From Roseburia sp. (GTDB lineage Bacteria; Bacillota; Clostridia; Lachnospirales; Lachnospiraceae): a stretch of DNA of 64,000 bases. A model generated the notes under the pieces. That model was not told the origin of the DNA and ran no database searches. It worked only from the letters and a program-made list of their open reading frames with translations. Where the stretch lies: assembly GCA_017937095.1 (NCBI GenBank), contig JAGBEG010000010.1:558001-622000 (forward strand). The letters are read 5' to 3'. Below, one piece after another: positions 5,369-21,990 of this stretch. How positions within the stretch are numbered: position 1 is the first letter of the stretch; every line of letters begins with the position of its first letter. The position numbers and the translations under genes were made by a program.

Positions 5369-5380
5369 AGATTACCTCGA

Positions 5381-6835
5381 TTATTTCTGTAACATAGAAA
5401 TGCCTTTTTTGATTCTTGCGATGGATTCCTCCTTGCCGAGAACCTCCATCAATTCCGTTGCGCCGCCCGGCGTCATCTGCTTGCCGGAAACAGCCGTGCG
5501 TAACGGCCACATCACATAGCCGTTCTTGACGCCCTTCTCCCCGACATACTTAAGAAGCGTCTGATAGAGTGCGTCATTGCTGAAATCTTCCTGCGCCTCC
5601 AAGATCGGCAGCACATCACAAAGCACTGCAAGGGATGTCTCCTCCGTCGTCTTCATCTTCTTGTGCGTATACATTGCCGTATCATACTCCGGAAGCTCTT
5701 CAAAGAAATCAATGTGCTCCCTGATATCCGGGAATACTTCGATTCTGGTCTTGACCATTGCCGCGATTTTCTTAAGGTCCATATCCTTATGAATGACCTC
5801 ACGGATATACGGCTCCGCCATCTCATAGAAGCGTTCAAAATCCATCGCCTTGATATACTCGCCGTTCATCCACTTAAGCTTCGTGTAATCAAAGACCGCC
5901 GGGGATTTGCTGATTCTGTGATAGTCAAATTCCTTAATCAGCTCGTCCAGTGTAAAAATCTCACGGTTGTCCTCCGGGCTCCAGCCAAGCAGCGCAATAT
6001 AATTGACAACTGCCTCTGACAAAAATCCCTGCTCCAAAAGATCCTCAAAGGAAGAATGACCGCTGCGCTTGGAGAGCTTCTTGTGGTTCTCATCCGTGAT
6101 GAGCGGCAGATGAATGTACACCGGCGACTCCCAGCCGAACGCATCATAAAGGCGCTGGTACTTCGGCGCGGAGGAAAGATATTCATTTCCGCGTACCACA
6201 TGCGTGATATTCATGGTATGATCGTCTACGACATTCGCAAAATTATAGGTCGGATAGCCGTCAGACTTAATCAGGATCATATCGTCAAGCTCTGCGTTCT
6301 CCACGGTGATATCTCCGTAGAGCTCGTCGTGAAATGTTGTCGTTCCCTCATTCGGGATATTCTGGCGGATAACGAACGGCTTGCCAGCGGCAAGATTCGC
6401 CTCTACCTCCTCCTTACTGAGTGAAAGACAATGCTTATCGTAAAGTGTGATTTCTTTTCCTTCTACTACTTCTGTCTTAAGAGATGCAAGCCGCTCCTTA
6501 TCGCAGAAACAATAATATGCCTCTCCCTTATCGACCAGCTCCTTGGCGTACTTCATATAAATTCCGGTCTTCATGCGCTCGCTCTGCACATACGGACCAT
6601 AACCGCCGTCCTTATCCGGTCCCTCATCATGAACCAGTCCCGTCTCTGCCATTGTATGATATATGATATCCACAGCACCTTCCACATAACGTTCCTGATC
6701 CGTGTCCTCGATACGCAGCATAAATTCTCCTCCGGCATGCTTCGCGATCAAAAACTCATACAATGCGGAACGCAAATTTCCGACATGCATTCTGCCTGTC
6801 GGGCTCGGTGCAAATCTTGTTCTGACTTTACTCAT
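5381..6835 (-). CDS. gltX: Glutamate--tRNA ligase
   Basis: This is a 484-residue class I aminoacyl-tRNA synthetase that charges tRNA(Glu), and in many Firmicutes also tRNA(Gln), with glutamate. The N-terminus [22 protein letters not shown] carries the HIGH-type motif as HVGN (17-20), and HKKLSKRSG carries the KMSKS equivalent. Full length for the family. The leader contains a good promoter (6981-7009), a hairpin followed by a T run, and a degenerate family-2 repeat, all before the start codon, so leader-level control is possible. The helicase gene follows. Confidence 0.96.
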
Positions 6836-6896
6836 CTTAAACCTCTCTATACTTTCTTATCTTATTCCATAAATCTCTTTACCTTACAGGAAGCAT

Positions 6897-6941
6897 TTTC
6901 ACGCTTTGTAACAGCATGGCGCTCCCTATAGGGTCAAAAAG
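6897..6941. repeat. Degenerate copy of repeat family 2
   Basis: The stretch TTTTCACGCTTTGTAACAGC followed by CCCTATAGGGTCAAAAAG resembles one end of the elements at 50401-50489 and 58414-58501, which read TTTCACGCTTCACAGC and TTCCTATAGAGCAAAAAAG. Only about half the element is recognisable. It lies in the gltX leader. Confidence 0.5.
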
Positions 6942-6982
6942 CCTGCGGCACGCCATTTCTTTCCAGCGTAACCACAGGCTAT
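6932..6982 (-). terminator. Hairpin with T run in the gltX leader
   Basis: On the minus strand AGCCTGTGG pairs with CCGCAGGCT, with an inner CGC/GCG pair, followed by TTTTTG. It lies downstream of the chemoreceptor gene and could end its mRNA. It also lies just after the predicted gltX start of transcription, so it could act as an attenuator. Confidence 0.55.
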
Positions 6983-7009
6983 TATATAACAATTTGATAG
7001 GAATGACAA
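6981..7009 (-). promoter_or_regulatory. Promoter of gltX
   Basis: On the minus strand TTGTCA (7004-7009) and TATAAT (6981-6986) are separated by exactly 17 bp, a near-consensus sigma-A promoter. It sits between the chemoreceptor stop codon and gltX. Confidence 0.75.
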
Positions 7010-7026
7010 GTAAGCAAATCCGCTGC

Positions 7027-8760
7027 TTACAATTTCTTGAAAATTTCCGTCTCCTTCTTCAGGTCCGCTGCAATGAGCTGGTTTTCATCCATATGGCGGG
7101 TGATATTGTCCATATCGTTGACAAGTACCTGTGTGCTGTCCGCCGCATTGCTCACTCCGTTGACGCCCTCCTCGATTGCATGTGCAATCGTATTGATTGA
7201 ATCTGCAATCTCGGTCATCGTCTGCTGAAGCATATCCGTCTTCGCCGTAAATTCGCCCATGCTGCTCTCGATATAGGAAGCCTTCTCGCGATACTCGCCG
7301 CCGGCTGCCACAAACGACTCAAATTCCGGCAGAATCGCCTCGTTCATATACGTTACAAGTCCGTTCGCATGATCTGCCAGATTATGTACCGCACCGGTCA
7401 CAACGCCGTTGATCTGCTGAATACGGTTCGCCGCCTCCTGGCTCGCCGACGCAAGCTGGCTGATTTCCGTCGCCACGACTGCAAAGCCTCTTCCTGCCTC
7501 GCCTGCACGCGCCGCCTCGATGGAAGCGTTCAATGCAAGAAGGTTGGTCTGGCTTGCGATATTTAAGATATCGTCCGTCAGGCTGTTGACCTGATTAACA
7601 CTCTTGCTGTCCTCGATTGCCTGTCCGAGCACGGTGACGATCTCATTCACCTTTACGCTCGTGGACTCCATATTATTACGTGCAGAAGACTCAAGCGCAT
7701 CCGCGTGTTCCTTCATCTCTCTGGTGTACTCGTTGATCTCTGTCGTGCGGTCGGCGATCTGGTCGACCTCCTTCTTTACGGATTCGGTGTTGCTGTTAAT
7801 CAGGGATGCATTGGCTGACATCTCCTCCATCGTCGCCGAAAGCTCCTCGGTGAGCGCCGAGAGATCCGCCACACTGTTGTTGGAAGTCACAACGCTGTCG
7901 CGCACCTCGCCTACAACGACATCCATCTTTCTGGAATTGTCCACGATCATCTTAAGGATATCCTGCATCTTCTCCATGAAGACATTGATACCGCTGCCAA
8001 CTGCCGCGACCTCACGGTTCGCATGTACCGTTACACGTCTGGTAAGATCGCCCTCGCGCTGGTCGATATCATTGATGATATTCGTGATTTCTTTCTGCGT
8101 ATTTGCAAGCGGAAGAATGACAAGCTTAAATACACTGATCAGTGTCACAAGCAGGGCAACGATACTGATGACAATCGTCGCACCGCTCGTAACCAACGCG
8201 CTCGAATATACACTCTGAAGCTGTGTCTTCGCAACCTCCGCTTCCGCATTGACGCTCTCGCGCATCGCAGAAATACTGTCCTGCATCGCAGAGGAATAAT
8301 CTGCAATCGCACCGTTTGCCAGCGCATATGCCGCCTCGTTCTGGCTGTTCGCGCTGTATGCCATCAGATTTGCAAGCTCGTACTTCATTCCATCGTAATT
8401 TGCCACAAGGTTATCGTATTCCGCCTGATTATCGGCTGTGACATAGGTCTTGAAATCTTCGAGGTAGCCCTCTAATATCTCCTGCTCCCCGCGAATCCGC
8501 TCTACAAGCCCCATCATTGTCTCAAGATCGGTCGCGACGATATGGGACAGTCCGAGCTGATGAATATAGAGCGTTTCCTTCTGGATGTCCGCCAGCTCAG
8601 AGATGCAGGTCATATGACCGTTTGCAATCTGTGTCGCATTGTCATTGACCCTGCTTATATTCATGACCGCAAGAATGTTCGAAAGTACCGACACAACCCC
8701 CAGAATAAATACCGGTATCAGGATGATAATTTTCGTACTGATTCTTCCCTTTTTCTTCAT
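7027..8760 (-). CDS. Methyl-accepting chemotaxis protein
   Basis: This 577-residue chemoreceptor has a first membrane helix at about 9-32, an extracellular four-helix-bundle-like sensor domain (about 35-185), a second membrane helix (about 188-212), a HAMP linker (about 213-265) and a cytoplasmic coiled coil. The signalling tip is [21 protein letters not shown] at 401-421. It reports ligand binding to CheA/CheW. It lies 18 bp downstream of a sugar-binding lipoprotein gene that has no permease beside it, so the two may work as ligand-binding protein and receptor. No tethering CheR pentapeptide is seen at the C-terminus. Confidence 0.93.
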
Positions 8761-8778
8761 TATATGTCTCCTCCAGCT

Positions 8779-10086
8779 CTACTGTACAGTGGAAGCAGTG
8801 ATTCCGTTCACAAGCGTGTCCATCAGCTCCTGAAGATCTGCTCCCGTCGGATTGCCCGCTGCCATTGTATTTCCAAACTCCTGCGTCGGCGTCCAATAGC
8901 TGTTTCCGACACGCTGCAGTCTGCCGTACTGCGCCTGGGCAATGACTGCCTGAATCGCCGGAACATTCTTCACCGCATCGGAAGCTGCCGCATTCTTATT
9001 GGAAGGCCCCTGATCGCGTTCCATCAGACGAAGCGTCTGGTTCTCCTCGTTCGTCATCCAGTCCGCAAGCTTTGCCGCCCACTCCGGATACTGGCTGTAC
9101 GCATTGACGCCCAGCATCTTGTAGCCCGTAAAGGAAGACATCTGAACCTGCTGTCCGGCACAGGTATAGGTCGGAAGCTTGACCGCGCCGTAATCATCTC
9201 CCCATGCCTCCTTAATCTCCGCTGCATTCCAGACACCGCTGACTCCTGCAATCACGCTGCCGTCCTGTACGCCCGAAAGGAAAACGTCATCTGTCGCAGC
9301 CATAAATCCCGGATTGCCGGCAATCGCAAGCATTGCCTCCGCCACATCGACGCCCTTGATGCTGCCCTCTGTCGTATTCCAGTTACAGTAATTCGTCACA
9401 CCATCCTCGTTGACGCCGAAGTCCATTCCGGTATTCCCGAAAAACGCGTACAGATACCATCCCGAGCTCCAGTCCATCGTAACCTTCTTGTCGGCTGCCG
9501 CTGCCACTGCGAGTATCCCGTCCATCGTAGCAACGTCCTCCTCGGTAAAATAATCCTTATCATAATACAGGAAAAAACCGTTGTCCGCAGTCATTGGATA
9601 AGCATACAACGTATCTGCAACGGTCGCTGCCTCTACCGCTTCCTCGAGATTTGCCTCCCTGACTTCATCCGCATTGGGTACCGGCATAAGCGCTCCCGCC
9701 GCCACCATACTCGTGAGCTGATCGTCCGGCAATGGGAACACGTCCGCGCCATTATGAATATCACCAAGAAGATTGTTCTTCGTGTCCGCATCCGCTTTCT
9801 CTACGAGCTGGATATCAAACTCTGCCTGCCCCGCATACTCCTCCTTAAAGCTCTCGATCATCTGATTCAGAAGCTCAAAATTCGCCTCCTCTGCCCAGAC
9901 AGTCAGCGTGACAACACCGTCATCCGTCTGCTCTCCGGCTCCTTCCGCAAGCTCTGTTCCGCTCACAGATGCTTCCTGCGCACCGTTTACCGCTTCGCCC
10001 GCTGCATCCTCGTTCGCCCCGCAGCCGGAAAGCATCGTACCAATCAGCGCCATCGTCAAAATTCCCGCAACACTCTTTCTCTTCAT
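8779..10086 (-). CDS. Extracellular carbohydrate-binding lipoprotein (MalE-like)
   Basis: This 435-residue protein has a lipoprotein signal peptide with lipobox LSGC (Cys at about 22) and a low-complexity Ala/Glu-rich linker. Its body, VVTLTVWAEEANFELLNQMIESFKEE..., is typical of family 1 (maltose/maltodextrin-type) ABC solute-binding proteins. ADVFPLPDDQLTSMVAAGALMPV and the SSGWYLYAFFGNTG region fit this. No permease or ATPase gene is adjacent. The chemoreceptor follows 18 bp later, which suggests a role in sugar chemotaxis, shared use with a distant transporter, or both. A 12-bp perfect palindrome lies about 80 bp upstream of the start. Confidence 0.9.
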   Translation of the reverse strand: MKRKSVAGILTMALIGTMLSGCGANEDAAGEAVNGAQEASVSGTELAEGAGEQTDDGVVTLTVWAEEANFELLNQMIESFKEEYAGQAEFDIQLVEKADADTKNNLLGDIHNGADVFPLPDDQLTSMVAAGALMPVPNADEVREANLEEAVEAATVADTLYAYPMTADNGFFLYYDKDYFTEEDVATMDGILAVAAAADKKVTMDWSSGWYLYAFFGNTGMDFGVNEDGVTNYCNWNTTEGSIKGVDVAEAMLAIAGNPGFMAATDDVFLSGVQDGSVIAGVSGVWNAAEIKEAWGDDYGAVKLPTYTCAGQQVQMSSFTGYKMLGVNAYSQYPEWAAKLADWMTNEENQTLRLMERDQGPSNKNAAASDAVKNVPAIQAVIAQAQYGRLQRVGNSYWTPTQEFGNTMAAGNPTGADLQELMDTLVNGITASTVQ

Positions 10087-10166
10087 CTAAAAATCTCCCT
10101 TCCTGCCGTATACACTTGGTCTTCCCTGACTCATTACTTCTATTTTACTATAATTTTACAATATGC

Positions 10167-10178
10167 ACAACCGGTTGT
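10167..10178. promoter_or_regulatory. Palindromic operator candidate upstream of the binding-protein gene
   Basis: ACAACCGGTTGT is a perfect 12-bp palindrome of the kind bound by LacI-family repressors. On the minus strand it sits inside the spacer between TTGAAC and a TGTAAAAT box, a plausible but weak promoter for the sugar-binding lipoprotein and chemoreceptor genes. Confidence 0.45.
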
Positions 10179-10200
10179 TCAACATTTAGACAAAAAATGT

Positions 10201-10380
10201 TCATTTTCTGTTATTTTTGATTATTTTCGCTTTTTTATCGGGACAGGATGTGCAGAAACTGCCGCCACACCCGCCGCAACCCGCGCATTTCCCGCTCTTT
10301 TTCCTATTTCTGTAATACAGAAATACCAGGATCAGCCACAGCGCGACCAATCCCAGTATCATGATATCTGCGATCCCCAT
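10201..10380 (-). CDS. FeoB-associated Cys-rich membrane protein
   Basis: This 59-residue frame starts 3 bp after the feoB stop codon. It has one membrane helix (about 3-23, MGIADIMILGLVALWLILVF) followed by a basic linker and a cysteine cluster CAGCGGCGGSFCTSC, then a lysine-rich tail. This is the usual arrangement of the small proteins found next to feoB in Clostridia, which are thought to assist ferrous iron transfer after uptake. Its position as the third gene of the feo operon supports the call. Confidence 0.92.
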   Translation of the reverse strand: MGIADIMILGLVALWLILVFLYYRNRKKSGKCAGCGGCGGSFCTSCPDKKAKIIKNNRK

Positions 10381-10383
10381 ATT

Positions 10384-12390
10384 CTACAACAATAAGCCTC
10401 CCACCTGATAGACAAGAAATGCCGCAATCCACGCGACAACGCACTGAAGCACGACAACGCACACAGCACGCACACCGCTTCCCAGTTCGCGTTTTACCGC
10501 CGCAATCGCCGCAACGCATGGCGTGTATAAAAGCGTAAAGACCAGAAAGCTTGCTGCCGAAAGTCCGGTGAACATGCCGCCGAGCACCGTGCTTAAATCC
10601 GCCGTCGCCGTGCCCGTAAGAACACTTAAGGTACTGACAACCGCTTCCTTGGCTGAAAAGCCCGTAATCAGCGCCGTCGATACCCTCCAGTCAGAGAAAC
10701 CGAGCGGTGCAAAAACCGGTGCGATCCACTGTCCGACCAGCGCAAGCAGGCTGTCTCCGCTCTCCGCCACAACGTTGAATCTCGTATCGAACGTCTGCAA
10801 AAACCAGATGACGATTGTTGCAACGAAAATGATCGTAAATGCACGTTCCAGAAAGTCCTTCGCCTTATCCCACATCAACTGTCCCACGCTCTTTGCAGAC
10901 GGGAAACGGTAATTCGGCAGTTCCATCACGAACGGAATCGGATTTCCGCGGAACGCCGTATGATTTAAAATAAGCGCCGAGCCGATTCCGACAAGGATTC
11001 CCGCAACGTAGAGCACGATCATGACAACCGCTTCCTTTCCCGGGAAAAACGCCGCCGCAAACACCGCATAAATCGGAATTTTCGCAGAACAGCTCATATA
11101 TGGCGTCAGCATGATGGTCATCCTGCGGTCGCGCTCACTGGAGAGCGTCCGCGTCGCCATGACCGCCGGGACCGTACAGCCAAAGCCTATGAGCATCGGC
11201 ACGAAGCTTCTGCCCGAAAGTCCGATTTTCCGAAGCGGCTTATCCATAACGAACGCAACCCGCGCCATATAACCGGAATCCTCCAGAATCGACAAGAAGA
11301 AAAACAGCACTACAATAATCGGCAGAAAGCTCAATACGCTTCCGACTCCCGCAAAGACACCGTCGATGAGCAGGCTATGTACGACCGGATTGATTCCGTA
11401 GGCGGTAAGCCCTCTGTCACAGAGCGCCGTGAACGCATCAATGCCTGCGGCAAGCCAATCGCTTAATGCCGCGCCGACAACGCCAAAGGTCAGCCAGAAA
11501 ATCAGAAACATGATAAGCAGAAACATCGGTATCGCAAGATATTTGTTCGTCAGCACATTGTCGATTTTGACGCTTCGTATGTGTTCTTTGCTCTCCTGAC
11601 ATTTCTTGACGGTCTTTGCGCAGATTTTCTCGATAAAGGTATAGCGCATATCCGCAAGCGCTGCATTTCGGTCGAGTCCGCAGTCTTTCTCCATCTCTGC
11701 AATACTGTGCTCCATCATGGCGAGCTCGTTTTCAGACAATTCCAGCCGCTCTATGATATCCGTATCGTTCTCAACAATCTTTGTCGCCGCAAATCTCGGG
11801 GACATCCCGATATTTACCGCATGATCCTCAACCTGATGGGAAACCGCATGAATACAGCGGTGTACCGGTCCCTGTTCGCAGAAATCCATGACCTTGGGCG
11901 GTATCTTTTTCTTCGAGACATTGACAATTGCCTCGATCAGATCCTCGATTCCCTCATCCTTTGCCGCGCTGATCGGGATGACCGGAATCCCCAGTTCCTC
12001 AGACATCTTCTTATAATCAATCGACCCGCCGTTTCCGCGCACCTCATCCATCATATTGAGCGCGAGCACCATCGGTATATGCATCTCAAGAAGCTGCAGC
12101 GTCAGATACAGATTTCGTTCAATGTTCGTCGCATCCACGATATTGATAATTCCGTCCGGCTTCTCCCCAAGAATGAAATCCCTTGTGACAATCTCTTCAT
12201 TCGTATAGGGACGGATGGAATAAATGCCGGGAAGATCCACGACCGAGCAGTCCTTCGTCGACCGTATCTCTCCCATTTTCTGGTCTACGGTAACACCCGG
12301 GAAATTCCCCACATGCTGGTTTGCTCCTGTCAACTGGTTAAAAAGTGTTGTTTTTCCGCAATTCTGATTGCCTGCCAATGCAAAAATCAT
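10384..12390 (-). CDS. feoB: Ferrous iron transport protein B
   Basis: This 668-residue protein has an N-terminal GTPase domain: G1 GNQNCGKTT at 7-15, switch region GNFPGVTVDQ, G3 DLPGIYS and G4 NMMD. It is followed by a helical GDI-like part and a polytopic membrane domain with two Nucleoside-recognition/Gate-type halves, for example GFGCTVPAVMATRTL and SCSAKIPIYAVF. It imports Fe2+ across the cytoplasmic membrane. The ATG overlaps the feoA stop codon by 4 bp, so translation is coupled. The operon start has a Fur-type box. Confidence 0.97.
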   Translation of the reverse strand: MIFALAGNQNCGKTTLFNQLTGANQHVGNFPGVTVDQKMGEIRSTKDCSVVDLPGIYSIRPYTNEEIVTRDFILGEKPDGIINIVDATNIERNLYLTLQLLEMHIPMVLALNMMDEVRGNGGSIDYKKMSEELGIPVIPISAAKDEGIEDLIEAIVNVSKKKIPPKVMDFCEQGPVHRCIHAVSHQVEDHAVNIGMSPRFAATKIVENDTDIIERLELSENELAMMEHSIAEMEKDCGLDRNAALADMRYTFIEKICAKTVKKCQESKEHIRSVKIDNVLTNKYLAIPMFLLIMFLIFWLTFGVVGAALSDWLAAGIDAFTALCDRGLTAYGINPVVHSLLIDGVFAGVGSVLSFLPIIVVLFFFLSILEDSGYMARVAFVMDKPLRKIGLSGRSFVPMLIGFGCTVPAVMATRTLSSERDRRMTIMLTPYMSCSAKIPIYAVFAAAFFPGKEAVVMIVLYVAGILVGIGSALILNHTAFRGNPIPFVMELPNYRFPSAKSVGQLMWDKAKDFLERAFTIIFVATIVIWFLQTFDTRFNVVAESGDSLLALVGQWIAPVFAPLGFSDWRVSTALITGFSAKEAVVSTLSVLTGTATADLSTVLGGMFTGLSAASFLVFTLLYTPCVAAIAAVKRELGSGVRAVCVVVLQCVVAWIAAFLVYQVGGLLL

Positions 12391-12819: not shown

Positions 12820-13446
12820 TTATCGTGTCTGATTGTCCGTATTGCCGCAGCCCGGGTCAAATTCCGGATTGCACATATAGAAGTTATTGCTGTCAAGCTC
12901 ATCCTGTACCATGCGAAGTCCTTCGCCGAAGCGCTGAAAATGCACGATCTCTCTCTGACGCAGGAAGCGGATCGGATCGCAGACCTCCGGGTCTTTGACC
13001 AGACGCAGGATATTATCGTAAGTCGTTCTCGCCTTCTGCTCCGCCGCCATGTCCTCGAACAGATCCGTAATGGCATCTCCTTTGGACTGAAATTCACATG
13101 CATTGAACGGAATCCCGCCCGCCGCCTGCGGCCAGATGCCTGCCGTGTGATCCACATAGTACGGAGCAAAGCCCGCCGCCTCAAGTTCTTCCGCACTAAG
13201 CCCCTTCGTGAGCTGTCTTACAATCGCGGCTATCATTTCGAGATGTGCAAGTTCTTCCGTTCCTATATCCGTAAGCAGTCCAGCCACCTTGCGGTACGGC
13301 ATACTGTAGCGCTGTGAAAGATAACGGAACGACGCGGCGGCTTCCCCGTCGGGACCTCCGTACTGGCTTATGATAATCTGCGCGATCTTCGCATTCGGCC
13401 GCGTGATATTGACCGGATACTGCAGTCTTCTCTCATAATTCCACAT
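12820..13446 (-). CDS. cotJC: Spore coat protein CotJC (manganese catalase family)
   Basis: This 208-residue ferritin-like protein begins MWNYERRLQYPVNITRPNAK and contains IISQYGGPDGEAAASFRYLSQRYSMP and TDIGTEELAHLEMI, the Mn-catalase-type di-metal motifs of CotJC. Known members sit in the spore coat. The start is at 13446, where the ATG overlaps the cotJB stop codon (TGATG); an in-frame ATG 48 bp further upstream would add residues not seen in the family. Last gene of cotJABC. Confidence 0.94.
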   Translation of the reverse strand: MWNYERRLQYPVNITRPNAKIAQIIISQYGGPDGEAAASFRYLSQRYSMPYRKVAGLLTDIGTEELAHLEMIAAIVRQLTKGLSAEELEAAGFAPYYVDHTAGIWPQAAGGIPFNACEFQSKGDAITDLFEDMAAEQKARTTYDNILRLVKDPEVCDPIRFLRQREIVHFQRFGEGLRMVQDELDSNNFYMCNPEFDPGCGNTDNQTR

Positions 13447-13712
13447 CAGCAGGCACCCCCTTCCCAGGGCAGCGGCTGCATTGCCCAGTTCCAATAGGTT
13501 CCGGGATTCGCCGTATCTATCGTGAGCGGACCATACTGCTGCGCATATGCCTCCAGCGCATTCCTGCGCAGTTCAGAATAATGTCTGAAGTACTTTAACG
13601 CCTCCTCATCCTTCGGGTGCGTGTCGAGATATTCCGTGATATCCACAACAGCAAAGCTTACCATGTTGATCCAGTGCATTAGCTGGCTCTGGTTCATCTG
13701 ATTCATCATCAT
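13446..13712 (-). CDS. cotJB: Spore coat protein CotJB
   Basis: This 88-residue protein has the CotJB features of a short N-terminal helix region, EYLDTHPKDEEALKYFRHY and the tryptophan-rich end TYWNWAMQPLPWEGGAC. GGGAGGGG lies 9 bp before the first of three consecutive ATG codons. It overlaps cotJA by an ATGA junction and cotJC by TGATG, so the three genes are translationally coupled. Confidence 0.93.
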   Translation of the reverse strand: MMMNQMNQSQLMHWINMVSFAVVDITEYLDTHPKDEEALKYFRHYSELRRNALEAYAQQYGPLTIDTANPGTYWNWAMQPLPWEGGAC

Positions 13713-13987: not shown

Positions 13988-15157
13988 TTATTCTGCCTCG
14001 CTTAATTTGTCAATCGCAAAAAGAATTTTCTCGACCTGCGGGCGCATTGTTCCCACCTTGTCAAGAAGCTGCTGTGCCTCCGCCTTCTGCTCCTTTACAA
14101 TGCCGAGGTTGTACTCGATCCTTTGGCGCAGCTTTTGTCTGCGTCCGATCAGCCCGTGCTTGACCTCTACCATCTCCTTGGGGTCGACAAGCGCTGCCGC
14201 CTGCGTGATCCACACCTGCGCGTCATAGAGACGGTATTTCGAGAGAATGCGCACCAGTCTGCCGTTAAAATATTCCAGATCCTCGTTCGTGCGCTGGTAC
14301 TTCTCGCGCTCTTTGACCGCTTCAAGATAATACTGCCACTGCTCCTCGAGTTCCCTCGCACTGCGCACATGATACTTCTCACGTGCATAATCAACGGCAT
14401 TCTCAATATTGACATACTTGATCTTCACCTTGTTCTGCAGGAGAATCGCACGGTTTAAATTGCGCTCGGCAGAAGCGATTTCAGAGCCGTCGCTCTGTAT
14501 TTTCAGATAAAGCGTGCACACAAGCACCGCCGTCACAAAAATCAATCCCATCCACCAGTAATAAAAATCCCTCTCCAAAATAATCTGCAGAATGACAAAC
14601 GCCACTGCGGCGGTCGCCGCAAGCCCGACGACAACGTAGAGCAGATTTTTGAGGCTCTTCTGCTGATGCCCCAGATATTCCCTGCGAAGATTCCATTCGG
14701 ACTTCTCGCGTTCCAGATACTTCATATCCTTCTTTAACGTATCGCGGTACATTTCATTTGCAGTAAACCGCCTTATCGCGTCCGGCATCCCCGCCTCCTG
14801 CTGCTCGATCTGCGCAAACTGGGCGTCGGAGAGCTTCTTCGCGGAATTTAAGAACTCCGTCCGCGCTGCATTCAACTGCACAACATTCGACGCGACGTCC
14901 GCAATCTGCTTTCGTTCCTCCCCCGGCATATCCTCCAGAAGCTGCACGTCATTGAGATAGGAGGTCACAAGGCGGTATTCCGCCTTCTCATCCTCAATTT
15001 CCTTTGTGACTTCAATCATCTGCTCTAAGCGTTCCACAACATACTGCTCGATCTTTCTGGTATTCTTGTAATCCTTTTCCGTTAAGACCGTCGCGCTCAG
15101 TTCCTCAAATTTACTTTCAAAATCTTTTTCTTTCTTTTTCTTCTTCCAAAAAAACAT
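13988..15157 (-). CDS. Membrane-anchored coiled-coil protein of the DUF5717/DUF5716 operon
   Basis: I do not recognise the family. The protein is about 389 residues long. It starts MFFWKKKKKEKDF, continues with predicted coiled coil (about 12-180), then has two adjacent membrane helices in the middle (about 182-203 and 207-227: LYVVVGLAATAAVAFVILQI and WWMGLIFVTAVLVCTLYL), and ends with a second long coiled coil to SEAE. Both coiled arms should therefore face the same side, probably the cytoplasm given the lysine-rich start. The start at 15157 is chosen because AAGGAAG is 6 bp upstream; the longest frame would use a TTG inside the previous gene. It is the last gene of a four-gene unit, with a 12-bp overlap allowed only for the longer start. 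Confidence 0.72.
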   Translation of the reverse strand: MFFWKKKKKEKDFESKFEELSATVLTEKDYKNTRKIEQYVVERLEQMIEVTKEIEDEKAEYRLVTSYLNDVQLLEDMPGEERKQIADVASNVVQLNAARTEFLNSAKKLSDAQFAQIEQQEAGMPDAIRRFTANEMYRDTLKKDMKYLEREKSEWNLRREYLGHQQKSLKNLLYVVVGLAATAAVAFVILQIILERDFYYWWMGLIFVTAVLVCTLYLKIQSDGSEIASAERNLNRAILLQNKVKIKYVNIENAVDYAREKYHVRSARELEEQWQYYLEAVKEREKYQRTNEDLEYFNGRLVRILSKYRLYDAQVWITQAAALVDPKEMVEVKHGLIGRRQKLRQRIEYNLGIVKEQKAEAQQLLDKVGTMRPQVEKILFAIDKLSEAE

Positions 15158-15168
15158 ATGCATCTTCC

Positions 15169-15981
15169 TTATATTCTGCAATTTTTCCGATATGAATCAA
15201 GCCACTGTTCCATAATCTCCTGAAGCTTTTGCATATCGCCTGCGGCAAACAGTGCGTCAAGCCGTTCCTCAAATTCCCTGATATTCTCCATCCGGCTGAT
15301 TTCGGAGAGACGACCGCCGATTTCCGCCGCTTCCTCCCCTGTAAGATGGCAGATTTCCGCCGCCTTTATGAACCCCTTTTCATCCCGCATACAGCGGTAT
15401 GCATAGAGGCATTCCCTGACAGACTCCGAATTGGCATTCATCTGATATGCGCGGAAAAAGCAGTCTGCCGCCTCCGGGAAAAGGAACAGGCTGGCATATG
15501 CCATTCCCATGTTATGCCAGACATTTCCCACAAGAATCTCGTTCTTCTCACCCTCTGTGTCCAGAAGCTTTCTGTATTCACGGATTGCACTCTCGTACCT
15601 GCCGTTTGCCGCGTAACGGTCTGCCCGTATCTTCTTACACTCGTATTCCGACTTATTCATAAGCGCCGCCAGCGCCGACGTAACCTGTTTTATCTGTTCC
15701 CTGTCACAATAGCCTGTTCCTGTTAATATGCATGTGACAAACTCCAGGAGCGTACCGCCCTTTCTTAGGATTTCACGAAGCCGCTCCGCCATATCCTTTT
15801 GCTTTCCTTCACGCTCGATCCACGCGCATAATTCCTCGTTCATGAAGTCCGCTTCCAGAAGGTACGCATTGTGCATAATATAATAACTCAGTTCCTCGAG
15901 GGAATAGACATTTAAGGACGCCTCGTCAATATAATAGGGAACCGCCGCCAGCATATGGCTGCACAAAATCAATTCTCCCAT
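15169..15981 (-). CDS. TPR-like helical protein of the DUF5717/DUF5716 operon
   Basis: I do not recognise a named family. This is a 270-residue soluble, all-helical protein. The segments YAANGRYESAIREYRKLLD, NVWHNMGMAYASLFLFPEAADCFFRAYQMN and SVRECLYAYRCM look like two to three tetratricopeptide repeats around residues 120-205. The N-terminal part (SLEELSYYIMHNAYLLEADFMNEEL) is a separate helical region. TPR proteins bind partner peptides, so an adaptor role is inferred. It starts 22 bp after the DUF5716 stop codon, with AAGGAAGAGG before its ATG. Confidence 0.75.
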   Translation of the reverse strand: MGELILCSHMLAAVPYYIDEASLNVYSLEELSYYIMHNAYLLEADFMNEELCAWIEREGKQKDMAERLREILRKGGTLLEFVTCILTGTGYCDREQIKQVTSALAALMNKSEYECKKIRADRYAANGRYESAIREYRKLLDTEGEKNEILVGNVWHNMGMAYASLFLFPEAADCFFRAYQMNANSESVRECLYAYRCMRDEKGFIKAAEICHLTGEEAAEIGGRLSEISRMENIREFEERLDALFAAGDMQKLQEIMEQWLDSYRKNCRI

Positions 15982-16002
15982 AGCCTCTTCCTTTCCGGCG
16001 CA

Positions 16003-17244
16003 TCACTGCGTGTCTCCGTCAAAATTCATCACATAATCCCAGACCTTGCCAGAGCCCGGAAACAGTTCTCCAAAGCCGAGATCCTTTAACTGTATCTGCA
16101 CCTTCGCATCGGACAGCGGCTTTGCCGTGATGCGAAGCCTGGTCGTCTTATCGGGACGCTCCGGCAGGTCGGAGAGCGTCAGCTTCTCAATCCTTGCCGT
16201 CCTGCTGTGCGGCGCCTGCAGCCAGAAATCGATTTCCGGCGTTCCCGAAAGAATGACTTCGCACCCGCCCACCGTCTCGTACCAGTTATCCCCCGCATTT
16301 ATCAGCGTAAAGAACTCCATCGTACCTCTGTTATATACCTTCAGGCTGACGTTGACCTTCATCTCATTCTCACCGAGATAAACATACGCCCATTCCTCCG
16401 GGTGTTCGCTTACCTCCGCTGCATAACATGCGCCCTTCGAATACATATTCTTACCGACGAATGCCCGCCTCCCCTTGCACAGAAAAGAAACCGAGCGCTT
16501 CAGCCAGTCGCCGTCAAAACCGTCGCCGATCAGATACGCGGAGGAGACGATACGTCCTCTGAAGCAGTCCTGTAAGACCTTTAAGAAATTCTCATCCCGC
16601 GCAGCGGCGGACAGCCTTCGTATCTCTTCCGTAAGTGTGATAAGCTGCGGCGATGTGCGCTGTTTCTTTTCAAGCCTGCAGCAACTGATATCCTCCCCGC
16701 GGTAATCAAAAAGGTACACATCGTGCAGTGTCAGCTCCGGCGCCTGATGATAGGCGAAATAATAGAAGCACTCCTTGCGGTCAAGTAACATCATCTGCTC
16801 CGCCTGAAGCCCGAGCTTTTCCGCAATCCCTGCAAACAACGTCATTGCCTCACGTGACAGCTCTTTCAGACAAATGACGAGTTTGTCCGGCAGCCGGACC
16901 GTTCCAAGTCCGCCCGCCATAAGCAGCAGCTTCTTTAAATAGAGCACAAGCAGTTCCTCTGCCGGGTACTTCTCCTCTTCCACAAAGACCATTTCCTGCT
17001 TTAATGCCCGTTCAAGCAGTCTGCCTACCGCCTCCTCCCCCTGACGGATGGAAAGCCTAAGCGCTTCCTCGCCGATGAACCACTGACCGATGCCCTTCTT
17101 CTTGGCGAGCAGTACCGGAATCTGATACACCTCGCTTCCCGCCACTGCCGAAATCGTCTGCGGCTCCCTGCTATTTACTTCATAACAACTGATAACGGCA
17201 TTGCAATCATCCAGATCGACGCCGATATAAAAACGATTCTCCAT
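16003..17244 (-). CDS. DUF5716 family protein with actin/Hsp70-like ATPase fold
   Basis: This 413-residue protein begins FYIGVDLDDCNAVISCYEV, which resembles the phosphate-1 loop of actin/Hsp70 ATPases (IGIDLGTTNS-type). VYLFDYRGEDISCCRLE resembles the phosphate-2 DxG strand, and SAYLIGDGFDGDWLKRSV the adenosine loop. The last about 120 residues (FTLINAGDNWYETVGGCEVIL, TTRLRITAKPLSDAKVQIQLKD) look like a beta domain, as in Hsp70 substrate-binding parts. From memory this corresponds to DUF5716. The ATG at 17244 is preferred over 17253 because of the AAGGA spacing. It lies between the DUF5717 and TPR genes. An ATP-driven chaperone or scaffold role is inference. Confidence 0.8.
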   Translation of the reverse strand: MENRFYIGVDLDDCNAVISCYEVNSREPQTISAVAGSEVYQIPVLLAKKKGIGQWFIGEEALRLSIRQGEEAVGRLLERALKQEMVFVEEEKYPAEELLVLYLKKLLLMAGGLGTVRLPDKLVICLKELSREAMTLFAGIAEKLGLQAEQMMLLDRKECFYYFAYHQAPELTLHDVYLFDYRGEDISCCRLEKKQRTSPQLITLTEEIRRLSAAARDENFLKVLQDCFRGRIVSSAYLIGDGFDGDWLKRSVSFLCKGRRAFVGKNMYSKGACYAAEVSEHPEEWAYVYLGENEMKVNVSLKVYNRGTMEFFTLINAGDNWYETVGGCEVILSGTPEIDFWLQAPHSRTARIEKLTLSDLPERPDKTTRLRITAKPLSDAKVQIQLKDLGFGELFPGSGKVWDYVMNFDGDTQ

Positions 17245-17263
17245 GCTCCTCATTCCTTACGCG

Positions 17264-20200
17264 CTACAGCAGTCTGAAAGCTTTCTCTGCCACCTGTGAC
17301 ATTCCATAGTAATCCTTCATCCCTGCCTTTAACTTCTCCCTGTCATCAAGCGTCATCAGAAGCCGCATCTCATTCAACCTGTCGTACCGTCCCTGACCGC
17401 CGTTCTCCAGAAGATCTCCGTTCGCGAGACATGCGCTCTCGCCAACCTGACTTTCGCCGCCGTCCTCCTCAGTGATATAGTACTGCACGCTCTCCCCGAA
17501 AAAGAGGATAAACTCCCTGACGTAAATTCCGTCGTACATCTCAGATAGCTCCGCCTCTTCGTAGACGTTCTCCCCCTCCATCCGAAAGTGCACCACAATA
17601 CGCTTACCGGGCGCAGCGTGATACTCTATAAAAAACTTATCGTGCAGATGATGCCTGCGCAGCAGCCCTTCTTCGAAGCTGCGGTAAAACGCAAAACAGA
17701 TATTCTTCGCCGTATACCGCCCAAGCAATCCGTCTGCGATCCGAAGCTCCTCCCCCGTAAGCGGCTTCTTTTCCGATAAATACTTTAGCAATCCGAGCCT
17801 GCACACACGGTTCTGTCCGCCTCCCGTTGCGATGCGCTCCTTTATCTGCAAAAACACATGTCCCGGAACGACCGCATCCTGCGTCAGATAGGCATGTGCA
17901 AAATAAGACAGATAGGCAAGGCAGACCTGTTCTCTTCCCCCGCCCGCATAGTAGCTGTCATAAATCTGCTCCGCATACGGCGTATAGTCCGTCGTATAGA
18001 GCATCTGCACAAGAATGCGCTCCTCCAGGTCATAAGTGTCAATCTGGAACTCTCCGGCGGCTCTCCATAGCTCCGCCATTGCTTTTGTCGGACCGTTATA
18101 GTACTTGCAGAGATAGATCAGCATCACGTCGTTGTATTTGCCGAGGGCGAATGTGCTCTCCGTAAGGCCGAGCAGGAAATCGTCTTCCTCATATCCAAGC
18201 TCCGTGACAGCATAGCTGCACAGTGCGACCCGTGCCGCCGCACCCAGATACTCATACCCGTCAAGCTGCACCATCTGATATGCCTTATCATACATATGGC
18301 AGTCCGTCAAAAACGTGACAAGCTGTCTTCGGACCGACACATCAGAGAATCCGTCCTCCGACTGTCCGAAGCAGTTCTTAAGCCCGCCCTCCGACTGCAT
18401 GAAATCATGTTTTCCGCTCTGATAATAACGGATCAGTTCTCCTGCCAGCTTCGCCTTGTAACGGCGGTTCAGCTTCCCGGACTGCAGCAGCGCAACCACA
18501 TACGCCCGTTCGTCCTCCCCCCAGCTCTCCCCGCCGCCTGCCGTACTCATATGATAGAGCATATAAGAAAATTCATCCGCAGCGAGCTGGCGCGCCTGTT
18601 CGATATAGCGCTCCTGACAGAGCATCTCCTCATCCTGATACATACCGCTGCCGCAGAAGCGGTTTCCTGTCGTATCTTCTAAGATAATACAGTAATTCGC
18701 CGTGTACGCCTTAAAATACGCCACGCCGTTTACGACCGGCACGCTCTGCGGCTTTACGAGTTCTTCATGCAGCACAATGGCACGCGCGATCCCGCCGCCT
18801 GGGCAGGTAAGCCTGTGTGTAAATAAAATCTCCGCCAGCGCATGCGCAAGTTCTTCATTTAAAATGCCGCGGTCTAACATCTCCGCGTAGAGAACCGCCA
18901 GATGCTCGTTGATATGCCCAGCCTCTATCTGCTCCATTGCAAACTGCTCCATCACGCGAAGATATTTCTGGTAGACCTCCGGCTGACGCTGCTTTGCCGC
19001 AATAATATTTACGAACAGAACCGCCTTCCCCGGATAGGAAAGTCCGCTGTCATACTGGAAATACATCTGGATCATCCGCGGCACACCGCCGACCTCCCCC
19101 GCGTCCAGCGACATCAGATACGCCTCATACAGACTGGTAATCCGAAGCTTCTGTTCAATGCCAAGCTCATACCAGCGGTGATACTTCGTCTCATAGCGCT
19201 GTCCCCGGATAAGATAGGTACAGATGACGGTAAGCATTTCCTCACCCGGGTCGACCTTATAACAAGCCTCAAGAATCCCGTAAATCTTCGGTTCAAATTC
19301 CCGAAGTCCCTGTACAATATGCATGACCTGTCTGGCAATCTCTTTGGTGACTGCGTCCTGTTTGATCGCCCACTGCAGTACCTTAAGTTCAAAGCTTCCC
19401 AGCTTCCCGAGCAGATACGGGTCCTGCCAGATCAGATAATACGCCTCCAGATACAGAAAAGGGCTCCGGCTGCCCTGTTCCACCCATCGTTCGATTGCCT
19501 TATACTTTCCCGAGTGATTCTGGTAATAGGATTCCTTTACAAACAACAGCACCCAGAACAGCAGGGAACTGTCCGGATTCTTCTTAAACAATAATTCGAT
19601 CTCATCCGCAAGCCTGTCCACATAGACCGGCTCGCGCTCCACCAGCGTGCACAGATACAGATAATACCCCCACTCGGGCGTCTCCCTGTCGATACAGTTC
19701 CGCTTGAAGTCGTCCATGATCCACGCCGCTTCCTGACGCTGCTTATTGACAAGCAGCGCCTGCGCCTTCATAAGCGGATACAGCATATTCTCCGGCGAAA
19801 GCGCCATCAGATGATCCAGAATCTCTACCGACTGGTTTGTCCAGACGCCTGTCACGATCTTCTTGAGACGGTAATCTATATAGAGCTGTGTGAGCCGCAT
19901 CCTGCCTGCCTGCATTTCCCGGTGCGCGGCAAAAGCCGTCCCCTTAACGCCCGATGCGCAGACCGAAAAGACAAGTGTCTCCCCCGGCAGCGCAAATATA
20001 AGACGCCCGAAATTCTTCCCTCCGTGCAGCGCCTCCGCGCGGATATAATACGAAAAGTTGCAGACACTTCCGATAAAGTCTTCCTCCGTCAGATGCGTCT
20101 TCTCCGGCACAAGAAAGTCCGCGTCCGACTGCACCCTGATATCCACATAGCCCCACTGGCTCTTGCGGATCGCCACGCTCTCCCTGCGGTCCTCCGTCAC

Positions 20201-20812
20201 ATCTGTATAGCTTGCCTCACCGCTCTCCAATGTGATATCGATCTTATGCTTGCGCCGGATGCCGATTAAGTATTCCTCGACCTTCTGCTCCGATGCTGCG
20301 CCCTCCGAAATTCCCTCGTAGAGCAGGCGTTCCCTCATCTCATCCGCCTTTATCACATTCACAAAGCTTCTCGAATAGAACAGGCGGTACGCCTCAGGCG
20401 CACTCTCCTTCGCGAGCAGTGCAAAATCGGAAAGGCTTTTGATCCGTCCCACAGACGTCTCCGCGTAAAGTCTGGAAATGGACGCAACAAAAGAAAGGTT
20501 ATATTCGCCCTGGTTGCAGATCACATAGAACTCACCTTTGACAATATCCCCTTCTACCAGTCCATTGCTGTGAAATTGATACCGAATCCGTACTTCTTCT
20601 CCCTCAAACTGCGGAGTCAGACATTCCATTCGCGAATCAGAAGTATAGATCATACCGCGAAACGGCACATGGTTTTCGCTCGTTATCACGAAATCCCCTG
20701 CGTAATCCCTGCCTTCTAATACTTCAATGTCAACCTTTTCCGTCGAAAATGAAAGGAGCGGTCTGGCGTATTCGAACTTTCCCCTTGCTAGCTGTTGTAT
20801 CCGTTTACGCAA
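17264..20812 (-). CDS. DUF5717 family giant solenoid protein
   Basis: This 1182-residue protein has no signal peptide or membrane helix. The N-terminal about 300 residues are beta-rich with repeated sandwich-like units (VDIEVLEGRDYAGDFVITSE, GLVEGDIVKGEFYVICNQGEYNLSFVASIS, GKNFGRLIFALPGETLVFSV). The middle (about 310-1000) is a long alpha solenoid of TPR-like pairs, for example ALSPENMLYPLMKAQALLVN. The C-terminus (RIVVHFRMEGENVYEEAELSEMYDGIYV) is again beta. From memory this is DUF5717, found beside DUF5716 in Lachnospiraceae. The start codon is TTG with AGGTG 6 bp upstream. A consensus promoter at 20862-20890 drives it. First gene of the four-gene operon. Confidence 0.8.
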   Translation of the reverse strand: MRKRIQQLARGKFEYARPLLSFSTEKVDIEVLEGRDYAGDFVITSENHVPFRGMIYTSDSRMECLTPQFEGEEVRIRYQFHSNGLVEGDIVKGEFYVICNQGEYNLSFVASISRLYAETSVGRIKSLSDFALLAKESAPEAYRLFYSRSFVNVIKADEMRERLLYEGISEGAASEQKVEEYLIGIRRKHKIDITLESGEASYTDVTEDRRESVAIRKSQWGYVDIRVQSDADFLVPEKTHLTEEDFIGSVCNFSYYIRAEALHGGKNFGRLIFALPGETLVFSVCASGVKGTAFAAHREMQAGRMRLTQLYIDYRLKKIVTGVWTNQSVEILDHLMALSPENMLYPLMKAQALLVNKQRQEAAWIMDDFKRNCIDRETPEWGYYLYLCTLVEREPVYVDRLADEIELLFKKNPDSSLLFWVLLFVKESYYQNHSGKYKAIERWVEQGSRSPFLYLEAYYLIWQDPYLLGKLGSFELKVLQWAIKQDAVTKEIARQVMHIVQGLREFEPKIYGILEACYKVDPGEEMLTVICTYLIRGQRYETKYHRWYELGIEQKLRITSLYEAYLMSLDAGEVGGVPRMIQMYFQYDSGLSYPGKAVLFVNIIAAKQRQPEVYQKYLRVMEQFAMEQIEAGHINEHLAVLYAEMLDRGILNEELAHALAEILFTHRLTCPGGGIARAIVLHEELVKPQSVPVVNGVAYFKAYTANYCIILEDTTGNRFCGSGMYQDEEMLCQERYIEQARQLAADEFSYMLYHMSTAGGGESWGEDERAYVVALLQSGKLNRRYKAKLAGELIRYYQSGKHDFMQSEGGLKNCFGQSEDGFSDVSVRRQLVTFLTDCHMYDKAYQMVQLDGYEYLGAAARVALCSYAVTELGYEEDDFLLGLTESTFALGKYNDVMLIYLCKYYNGPTKAMAELWRAAGEFQIDTYDLEERILVQMLYTTDYTPYAEQIYDSYYAGGGREQVCLAYLSYFAHAYLTQDAVVPGHVFLQIKERIATGGGQNRVCRLGLLKYLSEKKPLTGEELRIADGLLGRYTAKNICFAFYRSFEEGLLRRHHLHDKFFIEYHAAPGKRIVVHFRMEGENVYEEAELSEMYDGIYVREFILFFGESVQYYITEEDGGESQVGESACLANGDLLENGGQGRYDRLNEMRLLMTLDDREKLKAGMKDYYGMSQVAEKAFRLL

Positions 20813-20861: not shown

Positions 20862-20890
20862 ATTATAAACTAATTTGGAGGAGTAATCAA
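20862..20890 (-). promoter_or_regulatory. Promoter of the DUF5717 operon
   Basis: On the minus strand TTGATT (20885-20890), 17 bp and TATAAT (20862-20867) form a strong promoter. Its -35 box covers the start region of the divergent aminotransferase gene, and the two -10 boxes are 2 bp apart, so the two promoters probably exclude each other. Confidence 0.65.
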
Positions 20891-21990
20891 TGATAAAACA
20901 CAAGGACCATTTTCATGGCAGCGATCTTGAAAAGATAGAAGAAATCTACGGCATAAAGAAAGAAGAAATCATCAGTTTTTCCGCGAATGTGAACCCGCTT
21001 GGCGTCTCGCCTCTGCTGCGCCGCACGCTCGCAGAGCAGATCGATGCGATTACGACCTATCCGGACCGGGAATATACCTCCCTGAGAAAGTGCATCGCCG
21101 CATACTGCGGCACGGAATACGAGAACGTCATTGTCGGCAACGGCTCGACGGAGCTAATCTCCCTGTTCATCCAGATCGAGCATCCGAAGAAGGCTCTCGT
21201 CATCGGACCTACCTACTCGGAATACGAGCGCGAGATTGCACTCGGCGGCGGAACCACGCTCTACTATCCGCTGCGCGAGAGCGACGACTTTCATCTGGAC
21301 ACGGAGGACTTCATTTCCCACTTAAACGAGAGCATTGACCTTCTTGTTATCTGCAACCCGAACAATCCGACCTCCTCCTGCATTACGAGAACGGAAATGC
21401 GCCATATCTTAGACGCATGCAAGCAGCACGATATCTATGTGATGGTCGATGAGACTTATGTGGAATTTGCCGATAATATGGACGAGATCTCGGCAGTCCC
21501 GCTGACCAACTATTACAACAATATCATCATCCTGCGCGGAACCTCCAAGTTCTTTGCCGCGCCCGGTCTGCGTCTCGGCTACGCCATCACCGGAAACCGC
21601 GACCTGATCAAGGCGATCAACACAAGAAAGAACCCATGGACGATCAACTCCCTTGCCGTCGTCGCAGGCGAGACGATGTTTCAGGATGCTTCCTATATCA
21701 GACAGACAAAGGAACTGATTTCCTCCGAGCGCGCGCGCATCTTAAAGATTTTCCGGGAGCGGACGGACTTTAAGGTATATGAGCCGAGCGCGAATTTCCT
21801 TCTGGTGCGCATCTTATCGGACGGGCTGACCTCACAGGAGCTGTTCGACCGTGCAATCCGCCGGAAGATGATGATCCGCGACTGCTCCACCTTCCCGTTT
21901 TTGGACAACAAATATATCCGCTTCTGCTTTATGAATCCAGAGGACAACGACAGGCTGATTTCCTGCCTGCTCGCAGATTCCTGCGGCTGA
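20890..21990 (+). CDS. PLP-dependent class I/II aminotransferase (HisC/CobD-like)
   Basis: This 366-residue enzyme begins KHKDHFHGSDLEKIEEIYGI and has SANVNPLG, VICNPNNPTSS, VDETYVEF and GTSKFFAAPGLRLGYAI, where the Lys of TSKF holds pyridoxal phosphate. The HGSDL start and SANVNPLG resemble threonine-phosphate decarboxylase CobD, while the rest also fits histidinol-phosphate aminotransferase. No histidine or cobalamin genes are adjacent, so the substrate is open. TTTGGAGGAG precedes the ATG. A terminator follows at 22031-22067. Confidence 0.88.
   Translation: MIKHKDHFHGSDLEKIEEIYGIKKEEIISFSANVNPLGVSPLLRRTLAEQIDAITTYPDREYTSLRKCIAAYCGTEYENVIVGNGSTELISLFIQIEHPKKALVIGPTYSEYEREIALGGGTTLYYPLRESDDFHLDTEDFISHLNESIDLLVICNPNNPTSSCITRTEMRHILDACKQHDIYVMVDETYVEFADNMDEISAVPLTNYYNNIIILRGTSKFFAAPGLRLGYAITGNRDLIKAINTRKNPWTINSLAVVAGETMFQDASYIRQTKELISSERARILKIFRERTDFKVYEPSANFLLVRILSDGLTSQELFDRAIRRKMMIRDCSTFPFLDNKYIRFCFMNPEDNDRLISCLLADSCG

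Follow-up and report, generated by a model that had tools for sequence, protein, structure and literature searches.

A probable pseudo-Hsp70 in a Lachnospiraceae operon and its likely descent from a multi-Hsp70 machine

What do the closely packed genes of a near-universal, functionally undescribed operon do together in gut bacteria of the family Lachnospiraceae? In a 64,000-nucleotide stretch of a Roseburia sp. genome (GenBank assembly GCA_017937095.1, contig JAGBEG010000010.1, positions 558,001 to 622,000; hereafter the window), an original prediction made from the letters alone had singled out, at 13988..20812, four same-direction genes with short gaps. They were said to encode a DUF5717-type, a DUF5716-type and a tetratricopeptide repeat (TPR)-like protein and a membrane coiled coil. 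This layout is borne out: all four open reading frames (ORFs) are on the minus strand, separated by 10, 21 and 11 bp (taking the ATG at 15157 as start of the coiled-coil gene), and Pfam matches above the cut-offs secure the first three identities. The window proteins are members of DUF5716_C (PF18980), DUF5717_N (PF18984) and DUF5717 (PF18983), whose Pfam entries carry no function; none was met in narrow open-licence literature searches either, in line with what had been claimed. The explanation we favor, with a probability of about 0.6, is that the operon, specific to Lachnospiraceae in this form, descends by reduction from a larger Hsp70 machine, with the DUF5716 protein acting as a non-catalytic, lidless peptide-binding subunit.

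The DUF5716 protein matches DUF5716_C with an E value of 7.4e-103 (344 bits against a gathering cut-off of 34.7). In a fold search, its predicted structure (predicted local distance difference test score, pLDDT, 90) matches Hsp70 over the full length, a nucleotide-binding domain (NBD) being followed by a beta substrate-binding domain as in DnaK (PF00012). Entries of Ssz1 are among the structural matches (6sr6 in both fold searches, 4gni in one); the absence of a family from the match lists of DUF5716 or DUF5717 excludes no family. Unlike in DnaK, the chain ends after the beta domain in the model and thus has no helical lid. Furthermore, 35 residues stand opposite the 106 residues 200-305 of DnaK, which we take to delimit the IIB region, so that this region is gone, and the phosphate-1 (GTT) and phosphate-2 (GGGT) loops are lost in the alignment. 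Given the loss of both motifs and of IIB, DUF5716 does not resemble an ATPase. Of the ATPase fold originally predicted, the Hsp70/actin fold stands and enzymatic activity is doubtful; the ATP-binding residues it was suggested to look for are lost in both phosphate loops, the equivalent of K70 being uncertain.

The window protein stays below the PF00012 cut-off, the Pfam scan giving DUF5716_C alone, and a PF00012 search of its own genome at E values up to 10 does not bring up its gene. PDB searches gave weak matches, with the sequence to a designed oligomer (E 0.073) and with the DUF5716 profile to DnaK (E 0.18), and the same profile reaches DnaK-sized proteins at E values of 1e-7 to 1e-4 per genome. 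There are also two bridging relatives of a class termed here Hsp70-B, one of which (L251) scores above cut-off in Pfam for HSP70 as well as for DUF5716_C, the other (L242, from genome G778) for DUF5716_C only (E 3e-74). A tree of 51 sequences unites Hsp70-B and DUF5716 (support 100/100), and within this group DUF5716 of Lachnospiraceae is nested in Hsp70-B beside L242 (100/97), which comes from a genome where the other genes are still encoded; for this tree, 8-12 rows were taken from each Hsp70 class and 11 from Lachnospiraceae, and some rows (such as L270) are long and unsure in placement. Because the fold search, weak collinear profile matches, bridging relatives and tree agree, we take DUF5716 to be derived from Hsp70. 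Sequence and model together indicate that it is probably a pseudo-Hsp70, with a degenerated nucleotide-binding half and a retained beta substrate-binding domain.

Hsp70-B belongs to larger operons in other families of the order (Lachnospirales; family and order were assigned from the names of relatives). A PF18984 search of the order gave matches in 46/86 genomes, comprising 8/8 of the same family and 38/78 of other families, and a family-restricted system, as it had appeared from earlier samples (10/291, 2/199 and 6/196, all same family), is thereby rejected; few members of the order were among those samples. We took 36 of the 38 loci (G820 and G848 were left out), with downstream DNA for 20 of them. 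In 27/36, DUF5717 is split into separate ORFs for an Ig protein (~400 aa) and a solenoid (~900 aa); in the remaining nine, one DUF5717 ORF was matched, a contig end being the cause in at least one. The recurring order is Ig, solenoid, Hsp70-A (~558 aa), a GrpE-type protein, Hsp70-B (~523 aa), Hsp70-C (~546 aa) and Hsp70-D (~691 aa), followed 3' by the TPR homologue and then, in some, by the coiled-coil homologue. At its C terminus, the GrpE-type protein (about 279-645 aa) carries a GrpE domain, with Pfam E values of 7e-11, 5e-12 and 1e-8 for the three copies searched. Counted as presence in the stretch and not as strict order, Hsp70-A, the GrpE-type protein, Hsp70-C and Hsp70-D (fragmented in G778) occur in 19 of the 20 loci read on both sides, Hsp70-B in all 20, the TPR gene in 16 and the coiled-coil gene in five. 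An exceptional locus (L297 of G788, 5816-10912) has Ig, solenoid and Hsp70-B alone, with neither Hsp70-A, GrpE-type protein, Hsp70-C and Hsp70-D nor a detectable TPR gene, and is apparently a second, independent reduction in another family.

The four Hsp70s of these operons differ in their ATP motifs. With classes assigned by best profile score and one ORF of at least 400 aa per genome, the set of phosphate-1, K70, E171 and phosphate-2 is intact in Hsp70-A (30/30), Hsp70-C (21/21) and Hsp70-D (20/21, the other being a broken frame) and in none of the 26 Hsp70-B. The class profiles were built from pattern-picked sets, the patterns for Hsp70-A, C and D containing the phosphate-1 motif and the Hsp70-B set having been purged of intact-motif rows; a first count on sets picked by motif was thus partly circular, and the profile-based recount gave the same result. 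In aligned Hsp70-A, C and D (L251, L278 and others), with ATP motifs intact, no linker shown matches that of DnaK at the aligned position, and interdomain allostery may hence differ.

Since Hsp70-B has lost the motifs and DUF5716 nests within it, the pseudo-Hsp70 state would predate Lachnospiraceae. Hsp70-B retains the IIB region (median 105 residues), which DUF5716 does not, and we infer that IIB and the catalytic partners were lost at a later point, on the lineage leading to Lachnospiraceae. The larger cluster looks like the parent of the Lachnospiraceae operon, and descent of the window operon, as a reduced form, from the multi-Hsp70 machine of the other families is in our judgment rather probable. 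A more detailed picture, which we hold tentatively and at somewhat less than even odds, is that of a hetero-Hsp70 super-complex in the relatives: four Hsp70s (three with ATP motifs, one pseudo), a GrpE-fused exchange factor, the PapD/ASH-like Ig protein, the solenoid and the TPR protein would form one machine for a dedicated client class, of which Lachnospiraceae would have kept only the pseudo-Hsp70 scaffold, by now a core part of the cell in this family that works without ATP.

Within Lachnospiraceae, DUF5716_C and DUF5717 each occur in 293/299 genomes (298 genera); both are present in 292 and neither in five, and one alone is found in two genomes that are 67-68% complete. Three genomes at least 90% complete (G511, G573, G580) have neither DUF5716 nor DUF5717. 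Gene order was read in 80 genera (L128-L207) drawn from the 150 best-scoring places, a biased sample whose tilt is partly offset by 20 extra low-scoring genera. DUF5716 and TPR genes are present in 80/80 and DUF5717 in 79/80 (L186 lacks it at a contig end), and all 79 genera with the three genes have them in the order DUF5717-DUF5716-TPR on one strand, with median gaps of 17 and -4 bp, so that the arrangement in the window is no matter of chance. Among the low-scoring genera, DUF5716 and TPR occur in 20/20, preceded by DUF5717 in 19, with L228 at a contig end. The membrane coiled-coil gene, in contrast, is found in 38/80 genera and has no match in 42/80. An empty search alone shows nothing; here, a profile from the same alignment does detect the gene in the other 38 genera, and its absence requires six changes on the DUF5717 tree. 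Because it is missing from 42 genera, we regard it as accessory, and a four-gene core is rejected. Hence, of the expectation that the genes stay together across the family, the part concerning the first three holds, and the proposed membrane anchor exists in the window without being a needed part of the system.

The partners of DUF5716 were examined likewise. The DUF5717 protein matches DUF5717_N (E 1.6e-275, 916.7 bits) and DUF5717 (E 9.5e-102, 340.7 bits; cut-offs 25 and 25). Its AlphaFold2 model (pLDDT 87.4; predicted template modelling score, pTM, 0.60) contains two PapD/ASH-like Ig domains (about 20-125 and 190-290), a TPR-like alpha solenoid (292-663), a beta insert (665-729), a second solenoid (733-1053) and a third beta sandwich (1059-1130). 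The best fold matches of the Ig domains are axonemal scaffold chains, and a PDB sequence search gave a weak match to BamD (E 0.04). Sequence and model suggest a probable cytosolic scaffold. The TPR protein matches TPR_14 (E 6e-7, 30 bits against 23.5) and TPR_2 (27.7 against 27); PHROGs returned one match, with function unassigned there, in the TPR region (E 3.7e-5), and a PADLOC scan at E 0.01 gave no match, leaving a defence origin unsupported. In two low-scoring genera, DUF5716 and TPR are fused in one frame (L214 of G525, 9334-11385, 684 aa; L222 of G553, 5077-7245, 723 aa). For the coiled-coil protein, no Pfam family above cut-off and no PDB match at 0.1 was found; hydropathy places central membrane helices at residues 170-188 and 200-218 (numbering of the 387-aa translation), as predicted between two long coiled arms, and most of 52 aligned sequences have the same helix pair, some a single stretch there. 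Of 93 relatives collected for comparison, 80 were kept. The alignments, each with the window sequence added, cover 78/80 loci for DUF5716 (frameshifted L070 and cut L080 left out), 70/79 for DUF5717, and 56/76 and 51/69 full-length rows for TPR and coiled coil.

In several low-scoring genera, the IB region of DUF5716 is missing as well, as judged from profile range and sequence reading. Loss of a whole NBD lobe, which the profile ranges had suggested for these divergent genera, is rejected, as the first strands persist in the sequences and it is the IB region that is missing. Some genera with an IB-less DUF5716 (L217, L224, L223, L221) have a DUF5717 that is itself incomplete in its N-terminal Ig portion, L216 with a complete DUF5717 being a counter-example. 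At the sequence level, this co-loss hints that the two parts touch.

Some loci also have proteostasis genes as neighbors. The htpG gene lies directly upstream and in the same direction in L132, L163, L188 and L192 (4/80 genera, position -1) and in L075, all of one clade. In L019 and L068, of a different clade, dnaK-dnaJ takes this place, preceded by genes taken for hrcA and grpE. Both arrangements lend contextual support to the working model given below. Hsp90 was identified by Pfam for L075 and L137 and otherwise by cluster or first residues, and the identification of DnaJ likewise comes from Pfam. In 5/80 genera (L206, 1796-4108, and four other loci), a gene for Lon protease precedes the operon at a distance of two to five genes. 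Elsewhere, the window genome encodes a general DnaK, a DnaJ (named from sequence) and a second DnaK-like protein. The chaperone flavor of the original prediction is upheld.

We propose that DUF5716, DUF5717 and the TPR protein assemble into a cytosolic complex in which the latter two would hold and position DUF5716. As an ATP-independent scaffold, DUF5716, which would have no ATP cycle itself, would bind extended segments of client polypeptides, and clients would be kept for assembly or handed to the general DnaK, perhaps to HtpG. Catalysis could be supplied by the general DnaK of the cell, and the coiled-coil protein, where encoded, would anchor the complex on the cytoplasmic side of the membrane. 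Such a role would resemble that of yeast Ssz1, which is described as a lidless member of the ribosome-associated complex that does not hydrolyze ATP, has an altered linker and a beta domain complemented by a partner, and passes nascent chains to a catalytic Hsp70 (PMC7083937). DUF5716 is likewise lidless by model, and by sequence its phosphate motifs are lost. Unlike Ssz1, which binds ATP and has a J-protein partner at the ribosome, it has Ig/solenoid and TPR neighbors, and the operon holds no J-protein. The larger operons, in turn, pair specialized Hsp70s with an exchange factor as does the two-gene operon of Myxococcus xanthus, in which the Hsp70 paralogue DnaK2 goes with its own GrpE-type factor; the excerpts at hand mention no pseudo-Hsp70 or Ig/solenoid protein for it (PMC11019930).

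Several points weigh against this explanation. The htpG and dnaJ neighbors each fall within one clade and thus amount to at most two events. None of 150 upstream regions, duplicates included, contains an element resembling what we take to be the CIRCE motif (controlling inverted repeat of chaperone expression), and HrcA control of the operon is rejected on this ground; nor did a pattern check of 20 stretches from other families reveal a gene with a J domain. The collinear DUF5716-DnaK profile matches are weak (probabilities 61% and 11%; beta domain against whole DnaK, E 0.015) and lend modest support, lobe II has no in-register match to the DnaK profile, and the DnaK side of the comparison consists of two sequences. 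Finally, the phosphate-1 motif begins with D or E in 79/79 aligned DUF5716, residue 82, our guess for the K70 equivalent, is K or R in 65/79, and D183, which our own alignment puts at the position of DnaK D194, is D in 61/79. Together with the ATP bound by Ssz1 (PMC7083937), these residues leave room for DUF5716, by analogy and sequence, to bind nucleotide.

Among the alternatives, the one that fares best, though unlikely in our view, is a cytoskeletal or envelope scaffold, in which the actin-like fold of DUF5716 would be structural and the operon would position envelope or division proteins, not clients. Degenerate actin-like proteins serve as structural units in secretion and division machines, and here one adjoins a solenoid protein and a membrane coiled coil in a near-universal operon, with Ig domains that best match axonemal chains. 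However, chaperone chemistry is indicated by the beta substrate-binding domain and, in other families, by the GrpE-type and Hsp70 genes that accompany it. Moreover, the genome already has an FtsA-profile match within an 828-aa frame, which weakens DUF5716 as a candidate FtsA replacement, and what we take to be an MreB-like protein. Somewhat less credible still is a regulator of general chaperones: as decoy or co-chaperone, DUF5716 would dock on DnaK, GrpE or HtpG and set their activity. It would account for the htpG or dnaK-dnaJ genes upstream in two separate clades and for an operon that lacks catalytic Hsp70s and a GrpE-type gene in a genome with DnaK, DnaJ and a second DnaK-like protein at other sites, yet this neighborhood is rare and the upstream regions lack CIRCE-like sites. 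An ATP-driven machine at the membrane, acting as chaperone or in assembly with DUF5716 as motor, is improbable: it draws on the Hsp70 fold and the retained acidic and basic residues, but both phosphate loops (GTT and GGGT) and the IIB region have been lost, as has the IB region in several low-scoring genera, and 42/80 genera have no membrane protein. Just as improbable is an ancestral small operon enlarged in other families, which 40/78 of their genomes without a DUF5717 match would permit, because DUF5716 nests inside Hsp70-B, beside L242 from a genome still encoding the other genes, and has lost the IIB region that Hsp70-B keeps.

Regarding novelty, narrow word searches of open-licence literature turned up, among the records examined, no account of an Hsp70 origin of DUF5716/DUF5717, of the operon or of a four-Hsp70 operon, and nothing usable on essential genes in Lachnospiraceae; the one paper found to name DUF5716 is unrelated (PMC8115291). 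Parts of the operon belong to the Hsp70 world; within this search, the operon and the four-Hsp70 form themselves are undescribed. Two DUF families gain a fold and an origin, in a near-universal, functionally undescribed system from a bacterial family that is among the most common in the gut. If descent by reduction is correct, a bacterial Hsp70 has lost its ATP cycle yet kept substrate binding. A natural series would then lead from four Hsp70s with an exchange factor through one pseudo-Hsp70 to forms without the IB region, and could be used to probe the need for ATP in Hsp70 work.

The features of the locus are collected in Table 1.

Table 1. Operon genes, candidate promoter and flanking landmark, in window coordinates
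Feature	Position	Strand	Basis
DUF5717 protein, 1182 aa	17264..20812	-	ORF, Pfam, AlphaFold2 model, fold searches, hydropathy of homologues
DUF5716 protein, 416 aa, probable degenerate Hsp70: NBD without IIB region, beta substrate-binding domain, no lid	16003..17253	-	
TPR protein, 270 aa, conserved N-terminal region with YSLEEL motif	15169..15981	-	Pfam, alignment
Membrane coiled-coil protein, 389 aa, accessory, with two helical arms flanking a transmembrane hairpin	13988..~15157	-	hydropathy, homologues
Candidate promoter TTGATT-17-TATAAT, directly upstream of DUF5717	20862..20890	-	consensus scan
Divergent aminotransferase, outside the operon; syntenic landmark common to larger operons	20890..21990	+	

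The listed TTG start of the coiled-coil gene at 15181 overlaps the TPR gene; alignment of homologues favors the ATG at 15157, which is thus the likelier start. The promoter candidate is backed by its position only, as the eight such sites in the region lie within the chance expectation of 6.5 (standard deviation 2.7). The aminotransferase is presumably of the HisC/CobD type; Pfam assigns Aminotran_1_2 to the L002 copy. A member of its cluster divergently adjoins the operon in 41/80 Lachnospiraceae genera, and homologues lie divergently upstream in 13/37 loci of other families, at distances of 34 to 1861 bp; being a neighbor of both forms, it ties the small and the large operon together by synteny. 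The contig closest to the window comes from a metagenome-assembled genome named R. hominis, with 88% identity in DUF5716. Directly downstream of the operon, at 12820-13712 on the minus strand, lie genes that we take to resemble the spore-coat genes cotJC and cotJB. Mn_catalase Pfam matches occur in 3/69 neighbor proteins, and the place of the cotJ-like genes beside the operon varies across loci.
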